DNA of 37,737 nucleotides from Thermoanaerobaculum sp. (GTDB lineage Bacteria > Acidobacteriota > Thermoanaerobaculia > Multivoradales > UBA5704): contig JAJKHS010000075.1 in assembly GCA_021154885.1 (NCBI GenBank), positions 1-37,737 of the forward strand, in the 5' to 3' direction. Both the position numbers and the translations under genes were made by a program. The notes under the pieces are model-generated. The model searched no databases, had not been told where the DNA came from, and saw nothing but the letters and a program-made list of their open reading frames with translations. Positions 1 to 34,698 of the stretch are shown here, in pieces. Numbering within the stretch: the first letter of the stretch is position 1; every line of letters begins with the position of its first letter.

Positions 1-624
1 CCGCTGACGGCGATCCTCTTCACCGTCGAGCTCACTCACGATTGGAACGTGCTGCCGGCCCTGCTGGTGGGAGCGGTCGTGGCGCACGGCACGACCGTCC
101 TGCTGCTGCGCCGCTCGATCCTCACCGAGAAGCTCGCCCGGCGCGGCCATCACCTGGTGCGTGAATACAGCGTCGATCCTTTCGAGGTCCACCGCATCGC
201 CGAGGTCATGGATCGCGGCGTCGTGACCATCCCGGCGACGATGACGGTGGCCGAGCTGTCCGCCCGCATCGCCGCCGGCGACCCGGCTCTGACCAGCCGT
301 CAGGGTATCCCCATCGTCGACGCGCGAGGCGAGCTGGCGGGGATCATCACGCGCAGCGATCTGATGCGGGCGATGGAGAGCGAGCAGGGGCGAGCCGCGA
401 GCGTGCTGGAGGCCGGCACGCGGGACCTGATCGTCGCCTATCCCGACGAGCTCCTGCGCGACGCCGTGGCGCGCATGTTGGCGCACGACATCGGCCGGCT
501 GCCGGTCGTCGATCGGCAAGACCGTCGCCGCTTGCTGGGATATCTGGGCCGCGCCGGCATCATGCGGGCGCGGGTGCGGCTTTTCCAGGAAGAGAACCTG
601 CGCGAGCGGGGAGGCGGGTCTTAG
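1..624 (+). CDS. ClC-family chloride channel/antiporter, C-terminal part with CBS domains (5' truncated by window)
   Basis: The reading frame is open from base 1, so the gene begins upstream of the window. The first residues (PLTAILFTVELTHDWNVLPA) match the last membrane helices of ClC-type chloride channels or H+/Cl- antiporters. They continue into the ILTEKLARRG...REY linker typical of bacterial ClC proteins with a cytoplasmic tail. Two CBS domains follow, one around VMDRGVVTIPATMTVAEL and one around VLEAGTRDLIVAYPDE, ending LPVVD; these usually bind adenine nucleotides and gate transport. The stop is TAG just before a repeat-rich intergenic stretch. A GTG at 49 would be an internal codon, not the start. 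Family assignment is firm; whether it is a channel or an exchanger cannot be told because the selectivity filter lies outside the window. Confidence 0.88.
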   Translation, partial: PLTAILFTVELTHDWNVLPALLVGAVVAHGTTVLLLRRSILTEKLARRGHHLVREYSVDPFEVHRIAEVMDRGVVTIPATMTVAELSARIAAGDPALTSRQGIPIVDARGELAGIITRSDLMRAMESEQGRAASVLEAGTRDLIVAYPDELLRDAVARMLAHDIGRLPVVDRQDRRRLLGYLGRAGIMRARVRLFQEENLRERGGGS

Positions 625-744
625 AGGGTGTCTCAAAAGATCGCCAGCGACTCCGATGGCGCCCGGGATTGAAAGGACGGAACGTTTGTGGAGGAGGAGT
701 AGGCGGGGCACCGGATCTCCGCTCTACACTCCGACGACCCTGCC

Positions 745-950
745 GCAAAACTCGCGAGCCCTGGTGCGGCCTCGCGAAGCCTGCTGCAAAACTCGCGAGG
801 CCCGGTCCGCGCCTCGCGAGCCCTCTACGAGATTTCGTGAGTTTTGCAACAGGCCTCGCGAAGCCCCGCACAGGGCGCGGGAATTTTGCAGCAGGCCTCG
901 CGAGTTTCGCAACAGGGCTCGCAATCCCCTTCACCGGGATTCGCGAGCTC
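745..950. repeat. Intergenic tandem array of about ten degenerate 21-bp units with a TCGCGA core
   Basis: The gap between the ClC gene and aroC (625-986) holds no convincing gene. Most of it is a direct-repeat array whose CTCGCGA-like cores start at about 751, 771, 792, 813, 834, 855, 876, 897, 918 and 940. The spacing is 21 bp apart from one 20-bp and one 22-bp step. Typical units read GCAAAACTCGCGAGGCC or CAACAGGCCTCGCGAAG. Several frames stay open on both strands because the period is a multiple of three and the units lack stops; this is not evidence of coding. A second 21-bp array lies at 33654-33968. Confidence 0.8.
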
Positions 951-986
951 CGACCGGTGTTTCGGGCCGTAGGCTTACCAGCCGCC

Positions 987-2168
987 CTACACGCCGCCCG
1001 GCCACGCCTTCTGTAGAGCCATCGTCGCCTCCCAGTGGGCCTTCACCTCGGCCATGGAGTCGCCGCCCACCTTCTCCAGCAGCGCGTCGGCCAGCACCAG
1101 GGCCACCATGGCCTCGGCGATGACCCCCGCGGCGGGGAGGGCGGTGACGTCGCTCCTCTCGTACTGCGAAGCGTGGGGCTCCAGGGTGTCGAGGTCGACG
1201 CTGGGGAGCCCCTTGCGCAGGGTGGCGATGGGTTTCTTGTAGGCGGTGATCACCACGTCCTCGCCGTTGGTGACGCCCCCCTCCAGGCCGCCGGCGCGAT
1301 TGGTGGGGCGGGTCCAGCGGCCTTCGGTGCGCTCGATGGCGTCGTGGGCGACGCTGCCGAAGCCGCGGGAGGCCGCGATCCCCGAGCCGATCTCCACCCC
1401 CTTGACGGCGTGGATGGAGAGGATGGCCTGGGCGAGGCGGCCGTCGAGCTTCTCGTCCCACTGCACGTGTGAGCCGAGACCCGGCGGCACGTTGTGGGCG
1501 ATCACCGTCACGGCGCCGCCGAGGGTGTCCCCCTCCTCCTTGGCCTGATCCACCAGGCGAACCATCTCCGGCTCCAGCGCGCGGTCGATGGCGCGCAGGG
1601 GAGAGGTCTCGTCGACCTTCAGGAGGTCCTCCCAGGTGGGAGGGGGAGCGTCGGCGCCGACGGGACCGAGGAAGCGGACGCCGCTCCTGATCTCCACTCC
1701 GAATTCCCGCAGCAGCATGCGGGCGAAGGCGCCGGCGGCGACGCGGGCGGTGGTCTCCCGGGCCGAGGCCCGCTCGAGGACGTCGCGCAGGTCCCGGCGG
1801 TCGTACTTGATCCCCCCGGCGAGGTCGGTGTGACCCGGCCGCGGGGACTTGAGGCGCCGCAGCTCGGCGAGGCGGGGATCGACCTCTTCGGGGCCCATCA
1901 CCTTCTCCCAGTTGGCGTAATCGCGGTTGGCGATCCACAGGGTGACAGGGGAGCCCAGGGTCTCGCCGCCGCGCACGCCGCCGCGGATCTCGGCCGTGTC
2001 CTTCTCGATCTGCATCCGCCGTCCACGGCCGTAGCCATGCTGGCGGCGGGCGAGGTCGTGGGCGAGCAGTTCGAGATCCACCCGCAGCCCGGCGGGCAGT
2101 CCGGTGAGGAGGGCGGTGAGGCCGGGACCGTGGCTCTCGCCGCCGGTCGTGAGCTGAAGCCGGCGCAT
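987..2168 (-). CDS. aroC: Chorismate synthase
   Basis: This enzyme converts 5-enolpyruvylshikimate-3-phosphate to chorismate with reduced FMN, the last step of the shikimate pathway. The 393-residue protein begins MRRLQLTTGGESHGPGL, with the GESHG signature at the N-terminus. It also has the RASARETTARVAAGA signature and the RPTNRAGGLEGGVTNGE signature in the second half. The ATG at 2168 was chosen over an upstream in-frame ATG at 2261 because homologues begin at this motif. No Shine-Dalgarno is visible; instead a TATCCT box lies 8 nt before the ATG, suggesting a very short leader. It diverges from the lanthipeptide precursor. Another shikimate gene, aroB, is 14 kb away. Confidence 0.97.
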   Translation of the reverse strand: MRRLQLTTGGESHGPGLTALLTGLPAGLRVDLELLAHDLARRQHGYGRGRRMQIEKDTAEIRGGVRGGETLGSPVTLWIANRDYANWEKVMGPEEVDPRLAELRRLKSPRPGHTDLAGGIKYDRRDLRDVLERASARETTARVAAGAFARMLLREFGVEIRSGVRFLGPVGADAPPPTWEDLLKVDETSPLRAIDRALEPEMVRLVDQAKEEGDTLGGAVTVIAHNVPPGLGSHVQWDEKLDGRLAQAILSIHAVKGVEIGSGIAASRGFGSVAHDAIERTEGRWTRPTNRAGGLEGGVTNGEDVVITAYKKPIATLRKGLPSVDLDTLEPHASQYERSDVTALPAAGVIAEAMVALVLADALLEKVGGDSMAEVKAHWEATMALQKAWPGGV

Positions 2169-2209
2169 GGCGGGGAAGGATAGCAGGAGGCGGGCTGGAG
2201 CGGCGGCCC

Positions 2210-2238
2210 TTGAAGATGGCCGGCGACGGCTGTATAAG
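2210..2238 (+). promoter_or_regulatory. Sigma70-like promoter of the lanthipeptide precursor
   Basis: TTGAAG at 2210-2215 and TATAAG at 2233-2238 are separated by exactly 17 bp. They lie 35 bp before the lanA start, predicting a leader of about 28 nt that contains the Shine-Dalgarno AAGGAG (2261-2266). This is the best consensus-like promoter in the window. Confidence 0.65.
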
Positions 2239-2272
2239 GATGCACTGGTCCTACACTCCAAAGGAGAGCGCG

Positions 2273-33557: not shown

Positions 33558-33591
33558 CGCCAGGGGGCAACCCGCCTCTACCTCCCTGGCG
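33558..33591 (+). terminator. Hairpin after the RND operon
   Basis: CGCCAGGG (33558-33565) pairs with CCCTGGCG (33584-33591) around an 18-nt loop, 45 nt after the pump stop. No strong T-tract follows. It is directly followed by a duplicated GGCGTCAA. Confidence 0.4.
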
Positions 33592-33653
33592 TCAATCGTT
33601 GGCGTCAAGCCGTCACCAGGTGAAACCTGCCGCGCTCGAGTAGCAAGGCACCG

Positions 33654-33968
33654 GACTCGCGAGTCAGGTCATCCGCAACTCGGATGAGGTCGCTCACTTC
33701 GCGGATGAGATGACCTGCAACTCGGATGAAGTCACTCAATCCGCGAATGAGGACATCTGCAACTCGGATGAGATGACCTGTAACTCGGGGCAGGTCATTC
33801 GCCCCGCGAATGAGGTTACTCACTTCGCGGATGAGAGGACTCGCAACTCGAATGAGATAACTCACTTCGCGGATGAGATGGCCTGCAATTCGGATGAGGT
33901 CATCTCCAACTCGAATGAGGTGAGCCGTAACTCGAATGAGGTCACCTGCAACTCGAATCAGATCATCC
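33654..33968. repeat. Tandem array of exactly fifteen 21-bp units
   Basis: Fifteen consecutive 21-bp units without a single insertion or deletion. Type A units read GCAACTCGGATGAGGTCA plus three variable bases. Type B units have ACTTCGCGGATGAG or a close relative (CCGCGAATGAG) in the first part. The order is roughly A-like, A, B, A, B, A, A, B, B, A, B, A, A, A, A. The first unit contains ACTCGCGAG, the core of the array at 745-950. The + strand reads as NSDEVT-like and the minus strand as [14 protein letters not shown]-like heptads, both open through the array, so coding cannot be inferred. The array directly abuts a truncated integron integrase. Confidence 0.92.
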
Positions 33969-34332
33969 GCCGGCGATGTTTTCGTATGCGCAACCGCGAT
34001 TGGACCGGGGAATCTGCCTTGCGCGAGTATGCTCCGCGCCGTCGCGCGCTCATCCCAAAAGTGGAACCGACGGGAGATCGCGGGCGGCACCACCTGCACG
34101 AACGAAGTCTCCAGAAGGCATTCCTGGCGGCCCGGCGCAAGGCTGGAGTCTTCAAGCCCGCGAGCTGCCACACCTTGCGCCACTCCTTTGCCACCCACCT
34201 CCTCATAAACGGCTACGACATCCGCACGGTGCAGGAGCTTCTCGGGCACAAGAGCGTCAAGACTACCATGATCTACACCCACGTCCTGAACCGGGCGGGC
34301 GGGGAGTGCGGAGCCCCATGGACGCGCTGTAG
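33969..34332 (+). pseudogene. Integron integrase (IntI-type tyrosine recombinase) remnant, C-terminal half, frameshifted
   Basis: The readable part contains [26 protein letters not shown] and [19 protein letters not shown], then [12 protein letters not shown], the classic C-terminal catalytic half of integron integrases (R of HTLRHS, H of LLGH, nucleophile Y of YTHVL). Its last residues ([10 protein letters not shown], then stop at 34332) occur only in another frame, so a frameshift lies near 34300 in a G-rich run. A further shift near 34070 is likely, since HPKSGTDGR, resembling the expected DPRSG segment, is in that other frame too. The N-terminal half is absent, replaced by the 21-bp array. 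It cannot make a working recombinase. The left boundary is approximate. Confidence 0.88.
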
Positions 34333-34698
34333 CCCTGGGTCTGCATGGCGGCTCCGCCACTGGCAGTGCCTGGAATGCATATCGCTGCCGGCTATCATTC
34401 CTTGAGCCTGAGCTCTGGGACGCTTATCCGAACGCCGAGGCCGATCTGCTCCCGCCAACTCCAGTTCCTTCAATCAGATACGCCGGGGACCTGGACTGGA
34501 ACGGGCCTCCGACAGGGTGCCCCCCGATCTGCCTCCACCTGAGCGTGCCTATCGCTCGGCACCACAGGCATTGACGAGGTTTAGGAACCGGCGTATGATT
34601 TCAGCACCCCGAAGAATGAGGGAGATACAGCAGCTTGAAGGGTATCCGGACCGGAACTGTGGCGATCAGGGGGGTATGGCGGAGAAGTTCAAGTAGAG
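34333..34698. other. Non-coding stretch between integrase remnant and first cassette
   Basis: No convincing gene. Short ORFs of about 65 codons lack ribosome sites and family features. In an integron this is where an attI site or decayed cassettes could lie. GTTTAGG occurs near 34580, but no paired arms of an attC were found by eye. Confidence 0.5.

Follow-up and report, generated by a model that had tools for sequence, protein, structure and literature searches.

The array of short palindromes that separates the 3′ ends of a CBS-domain gene and aroC is noncoding and intergenic, and it belongs to a dispersed family: BLAST with this array returned 43 matches in the genome that carries it (G000; 8,215,911 bases, 8.2 Mb, in 161 contigs), which group into 18 loci. 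It lies in the left part of the window, the whole stretch of 37,737 nucleotides of Thermoanaerobaculum sp. DNA analysed here (Table 1). Our tentative reading, to which we give somewhat less than an even chance, is that the array is a copy of an interspersed, non-autonomous element, some 200 bp long and made of helically phased palindromes, which is moved by a DNA-binding enzyme acting in trans.

Table 1 Features of the window that bear on the arrays.
Feature	Position	Strand	Remarks
CBS-domain gene, 3′ part	1..624	+	Two CBS domains; ClC-type according to the first-pass annotation; stop codon just ahead of the repeat
Partial copy of another dispersed repeat	625..672	+	GAGGGTGTCTCAAAAG...GGCGCCCGGGATTG
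Family-A array	739..950	.	About 10 units, YTCGCGAR core and 13-bp spacer, 21-bp pitch; strand not assigned
aroC, chorismate synthase	987..2261	-	PF01264; 3′ end faces the array
Family-B array	33655..33985	+	Some 15 repeats of another 21-bp unit; ACTCGCGAG stands at the head

In this left-hand array (family A) the 8-bp core of the unit is itself palindromic. The spacers occur in both orientations and are loose palindromes or hybrids of two half-palindromes, ranging from GCCTGCTGCAAAA to TTTTGCAACAGGC. Cores are found at 751, 771, 792, 813, 834, 855, 897, 918 and 940, with a degenerate core near 876, and the steps between them are 20, 21, 21, 21, 21, 42, 21 and 22. This agrees with the first-pass annotation, made from the letters alone, which had described a core every 21 bp with one step of 20 and one of 22 and had placed GCAAAA or CAACAGGC beside the cores; both were indeed found to flank them. 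Its span of 745-950 does contain the array but sets in slightly late, the first half-unit (CCTGCCGCAAAA) lying near 739. Over 745-950 the self-match at lag 21 was 0.486, the top value of lags 10-40, as compared to a mean of 0.251 for the other lags and a maximum of 0.406 across lags 10-40 in 1000 dinucleotide shuffles. The 21-bp periodicity exceeds chance. Tandem Repeats Finder reported overlapping rows with periods of 20, 21 and 41 at this place, and matches of a family-A profile inside the array include 771-820, 815-862 and 879-922.

This profile, derived from sequence only and built on 53 stretches that each span two units and a further core, gave 131 matches at E ≤ 0.01 in about 22 loci of the genome (best 150 of 11,198 candidates scored), with one weak member on contig C81 near 39.3 kb. 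At three other loci the same array is present with 88-89% identity across 185-187 bp (BLAST). Two TCGCGA separated by 2-32 bases occur 132 times per strand vs 44 times for the reversed control, the 132 including an unrelated repeat of 39-40 bp. By a core-chain rule, 10 of the 18 BLAST-defined arrays are 194-197 bp long, in a range of 112-237. Among their 231 core pairs no more than 31 bp apart, 130 are spaced by 21, 19 by 20, 3 by 22 and 79 otherwise; because 19 pairs step by 20, the helical phasing is not strict. Within an array, the units agree at only 7-12 of 21 positions. Fifteen of the 18 arrays lie outside genes, and three (L044, L047 and L056) overlap a call, as judged by crude codon-usage gene calls; these placements, together with the 20-bp steps, which shift the frame, led us to reject a protein-coding heptad repeat. 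In the congeners, the profile had 13 matches in G002, which has its own unit theme (AGGTCTGGAGCAGACCT), and one marginal match in G001; in G003, a genome of the same family, it had no match.

The right-hand array matches 12 places in the genome and thus defines a second dispersed family, B. The suggestion of the first-pass annotation that such arrays are dispersed through intergenic regions was borne out by the loci of both families, and a genome with only the two arrays of the window is contradicted by them. The kinship that it implied between the two arrays did not hold up: the unit profiles of A and B are no closer than column-permuted controls (p = 0.53, 5000 permutations), and one common sequence family was rejected on this ground. 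We take A and B to be two separate families with a common 21-bp ruler and palindromic style. It was correct that the first right-hand unit contains the sequence given for it in Table 1, but that sequence belongs to the array's head. Several other family-B arrays are likewise headed by a leader core, CTCGCGAG or CCGCGAGTC, and several open with a ACTCGCGAGTC or CCGCGAGTC unit, after a leader common to them.

Comparison with the congener G001 speaks for movement: three sites were checked there and none has an array. The clearest is the site of the GidA-family (trmFO) gene of L057, where G001 retains both neighbours and a TATAAT-like box, and the upstream stop is separated from this box by only some 23 bp, at the place where the genome of the window has an array. 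No array was found upstream of trmFO in G001, G002 or G003; homology to the upstream gene is present in G001, extends over 86 bp in G002 and is absent from G003. At this site the array has been gained relative to the congener. The ClC/aroC site is weaker evidence for movement. G001 has no array there and carries aroC and the other gene in tandem; window 1-626 is 97.3% identical but inverted in G001, against 86% identity for aroC. As the break falls where the dispersed repeat starts (window 626), it may stem from an inversion, from transfer or from a chimeric contig. The L048 site also has no array in G001, but homology is broken there and the comparison is supportive only. Inspection by eye of the copy boundaries and of the trmFO site revealed no target-site duplication. 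Near-identical arrays stand in unrelated places, and whole copies are alike although the units within each are not, which argues that whole, already degenerate arrays move; the arrays appear to spread as ready-made blocks. In G059, a Thermoanaerobaculia MAG, three copies (C5, C2 and C100) of an array of about 900 bp and about 44 units are 86-91% identical in different surroundings; their left edge is nearly identical and one pair is also alike beyond the right edge. The gene beside one of these copies looks as if it encodes a membrane pyrophosphatase. A search of 13 genomes with the G059 array L100 gave matches in G059 alone.

In a Pfam scan of 21 of the 39 listed flanking genes, 18 had a Pfam family, none was a transposase or recombinase, and the 21 proteins had no common class. 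As gene ends face the arrays both ways, a convergent-gene or terminator placement was rejected. The flanking gaps (n = 39, crude gene calls) bring 3′ ends as near as 1 bp, and 5′ starts are at least 42 bp away. A sequence like the repeat at 625-672 also lies ahead of array copy L003.

Period 21 recurs in related genomes. An any-period scan (126-bp windows, best lag of 10-40) of DNA that had not been selected for arrays gave lag 21 as the most frequent lag in the genome of the window, narrowly (5 of 17 clusters in 308 kb; lag 15 had 4), and in G003 (8 of 22 in 329 kb; lag 12 had 4), where three of the eight (L236, L242 and L245 at 9928) look coding by eye. A random sample of 217 kb from G059 gave 3 of 13; lag 39 had 4, which all belong to a single locus. 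In small samples from four genomes at the order level, two lag-21 clusters turned up in total, in G004 and G023, neither of which resembles an intergenic array by eye. In noncoding samples, with crude gene masking and residual coding periodicity still present, lag 21 ranked first of 65 lags in G000, G003, G059, G007 and G016, 16th in G004 and 9th in G023; despite this first rank, no cluster with lag 21 turned up in the 71 kb and five additional stretches of G007. Clusters read by eye revealed about five further unit themes in the genome of the window and different ones in G003 and G059. A spacer-agnostic GTDB scan, which gave mixed matches among those listed, several of them arrays in open frames, had led us to the Thermoanaerobaculia genome and to the short Prevotella arrays described below. 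Thermoanaerobaculia are a class within Acidobacteriota, and RpoB of G001 is 73.7% identical to that of G059, 79-83% to those of six members of the order and 48-51% to sequences from Myxococcota, delta and Gemmatimonadetes. RpoB is present in G000 as a short fragment only, which gave no G059 match, and the placement of G000 as an acidobacterial relative therefore rests on G001.

The second common trait is the palindrome. Significant dyads (p ≤ 0.01) were found in 15 of 57 lag-21 clusters vs none of 56 clusters of other lags, by a permutation of unit columns that preserves periodicity and composition; the 57 include BLAST-chosen loci and related copies, indels were left in, and 42 of them had no significant palindrome at this threshold. 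In the family-A alignment, pairing centred on the spacer amounted to 71.5% of cells vs 68.7 ± 0.8 after shuffling (0 of 500 reached the observed value), and the covariation score was 0.207 vs 0.179 ± 0.011 (reached by 1 of 500). This excess is small, and common descent can account for it. Pairing centred on the core did not exceed shuffles, 91 and 80 of 500 for pairing and covariation, respectively, and was dismissed. Family-A units have no net polarity: compared directly or inverted at the best rotation they are about equally similar, the difference being 1.2 of 21 positions or less in each of the 17 arrays L044-L060 and 0.4 in the array of the window. That family-A units are as alike inverted as direct speaks for an unpolarised role at the level of DNA. 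A single switch of orientation per array is not the rule, since only 8 of 50 arrays have one at p ≤ 0.03 (L046, L047, L051, L061, L215, L346, L352 and L353). GTGTA occurs in the outer left spacers of 4 of the 18 family-A arrays, three of which also have the inverted TACAC at the right end; a terminal repeat common to all 18 was not found.

According to the mechanism that we propose, an array of about 200 bp moves as a whole block and is then reshaped by gain, loss and exchange of units. The pitch of 21 bp, two turns of B-DNA, with its alternating dyads would be explained by an oligomeric DNA-binding protein that occupies dyad after dyad along one face of the helix. The best candidate for this putative binder would be the transposase or recombinase that acts in trans to move the arrays, and each unit theme might be matched to its own enzyme. 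A mobilising enzyme was not identified among the 21 scanned flanking genes or at 8 Y1-transposase loci. These 8 loci were examined out of 12 matches, and one has an adjoining 21-bp array (L189:1941-2172), whose unit profile resembles family A (0 of 2000 permutations as similar). With an array at one of these 8 Y1 loci, mobilisation by RAYTs seems unlikely. More broadly, although this is doubtful, the arrays could represent a hitherto undescribed class of mobile DNA, perhaps at the level of the phylum, in which stand-alone phased-palindrome arrays keep a common 21-bp ruler and vary their themes, each read by its own recombinase in a diversified recognition code.

Three other explanations deserve consideration. 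The arrays might be passive minisatellites, in which units arise by slippage and unequal crossing-over and blocks are dispersed by segmental duplication, with no protein involved. Higher-order repeats within arrays, for example L070, and the duplicated block of G059 that extends beyond the array fit this idea, as do periods of 12, 15, 18 and others in the same samples (17 of 56 clusters without an open frame). It has difficulty, however, with lag 21 being the strongest of 65 lags in noncoding DNA sampled from three genomes whose themes are unrelated, and with significant dyads being confined to lag-21 clusters, and we consider it somewhat unlikely. That the arrays serve the chromosome, as scaffolds for a nucleoid-organising or regulatory protein of benefit to the host, with 21 bp keeping the sites on one face, is unlikely as well. 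The two-turn pitch, the dyads and the missing net polarity would suit such a function, and there is a precedent in the operators of ArgR, where contacts are made, through tandem palindromes, with four consecutive openings of the major groove on a single face, as described in the excerpted text of PMC7248756. Against it stand the sites without an array in the congener, the lack of a common class among the 21 scanned neighbour proteins and the variation of themes between arrays and genomes.

Folding bears on the remaining possibility, that the array is transcribed or becomes single-stranded and acts as a long hairpin, be it as terminator, stability element or dsRNA. Minimum-energy folding turns the window array into one long hairpin and four others, among the folds inspected, largely into long hairpins. 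All 15 family-A arrays folded (of 18) are stabler than their dinucleotide shuffles, with z -3.9 to -8.8, and also than arrays with permuted columns, with z -2.7 to -7.7. L257, however, lacks this stability (z -1.2 and 0.3), and the folds of six arrays of family B are weaker (column-permuted z -1.0 to -3.1). Shuffling the order of units matches the fold energy in 34 of 40 arrays; for the other 6, at most one of 60 such shuffles did as well. The palindrome is thus carried by the unit and not by the array, and the long hairpin follows from the units; as a conserved feature it was rejected. The missing polarity of family A, the neighbouring gene ends that face the arrays both ways and Rfam, which for window 500-1100 gave four matches, the best with 31.1 bits vs a cut-off of 90 and none above the gathering score, also speak against a hairpin element, which we regard as improbable.

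The element proposed here, mobile and made of phased palindromes, resembles several known systems in part. REPs are palindromes of 20-40 bp, most of them with a GTAG or CGTC tag, that form dimers mostly with spacers of 20-100 bp, according to the excerpted text of PMC3733652. Like REPs and BIMEs, the arrays are dispersed, short intergenic palindromes in mosaic groups and in both orientations, they contain imperfect palindromes of 20-40 bp, and the genome has Y1_Tnp genes (12 matches). Unlike the spaced dimers of REPs in that excerpt (PMC3733652), about ten units abut at a 21-bp pitch, and the tags are rarer than in the genome: the 18 family-A arrays (3529 bp) contain 10 GTAG/CTAC and 12 CGTC/GACG, below the genome rate, and the alignment has no conserved GTAG or CGTC columns. 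For E. coli, an excerpt on RepRanger describes REPs without clear clustering or periodicity (PMC12306157). With MITEs the arrays have in common that they are non-autonomous, dispersed and absent from the sister sites checked, and a subset has inverted outer units (GTGTA...TACAC); they differ in having no terminal repeat common to the 18, no target-site duplication seen by eye and a tandem interior. Plasmid iterons and transposon-end site arrays are tandem site arrays as well, located at an origin or a transposon end. CRISPR arrays consist of direct repeats that are identical and about 23-50 bp long, separated by unique spacers; the intergenic position and the alternation of repeat and spacer are a likeness, but the cores here are degenerate and 8 bp long and the 13-bp spacers are recurrent and palindromic, so that a CRISPR array was rejected. 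With the tandem operators of the ArgR type, the arrays have in common the tandem dyads on one face of the DNA (PMC7248756, excerpt), whereas a single operator contrasts with many scattered, stand-alone arrays of many themes. Among the open-access papers listed for 21-bp, acidobacterial, Thermoanaerobaculia or phased palindromic repeats, no title or abstract opening described such a class.

A two-turn ruler that is maintained across unrelated sequences raises the question of what measures 21 bp. The arrays are a defined DNA bait for finding the putative binding protein, and the presence or absence of arrays at the strain level would show whether movement continues today.

Some further repeats were seen on the way. 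The dispersed sequence GAGGGTGTCTSAAAAG...GCGCCCGGGATTG, of which window 625-672 is a partial copy adjoining the array, runs in L252 into a REP-like palindrome, GCCCGGGATTGAAATCCCGGGC (L252:8516), and this palindrome also lies beside the Y1-transposase gene of L190. A dispersed 39-40 bp repeat like TCGCGAGGCCCCCGGAATCGCCATCCTTTGCCATCGCGA is found in the genome of the window at C4:2693, C32:157704, C42:9597 and C53:48470. Short 21-bp arrays with the same CTCGCGAG core are present in Bacteroidota (L107, L126, L139 and L142, Prevotella sp. RGIG4958; also L095); those of Prevotella have AT-rich palindromic spacers.

In family B, the common leader (window 33590-34060; L062-L068) is in L068 the 3′ end of a TPR-protein gene, and the arrays that have it begin at graded positions on the left. 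A trailer around TATGCGCAA occurs in 4 of 9 family-B loci and in three runs on to a stretch that looks promoter-like by eye. Leader, array and trailer are possibly a larger mobile module. Window 33710-34405 is an open frame in which the C-terminal part of a tyrosine recombinase (PF00589) is fused to the translated family-B array; this fragment presumably resembles integron integrases.
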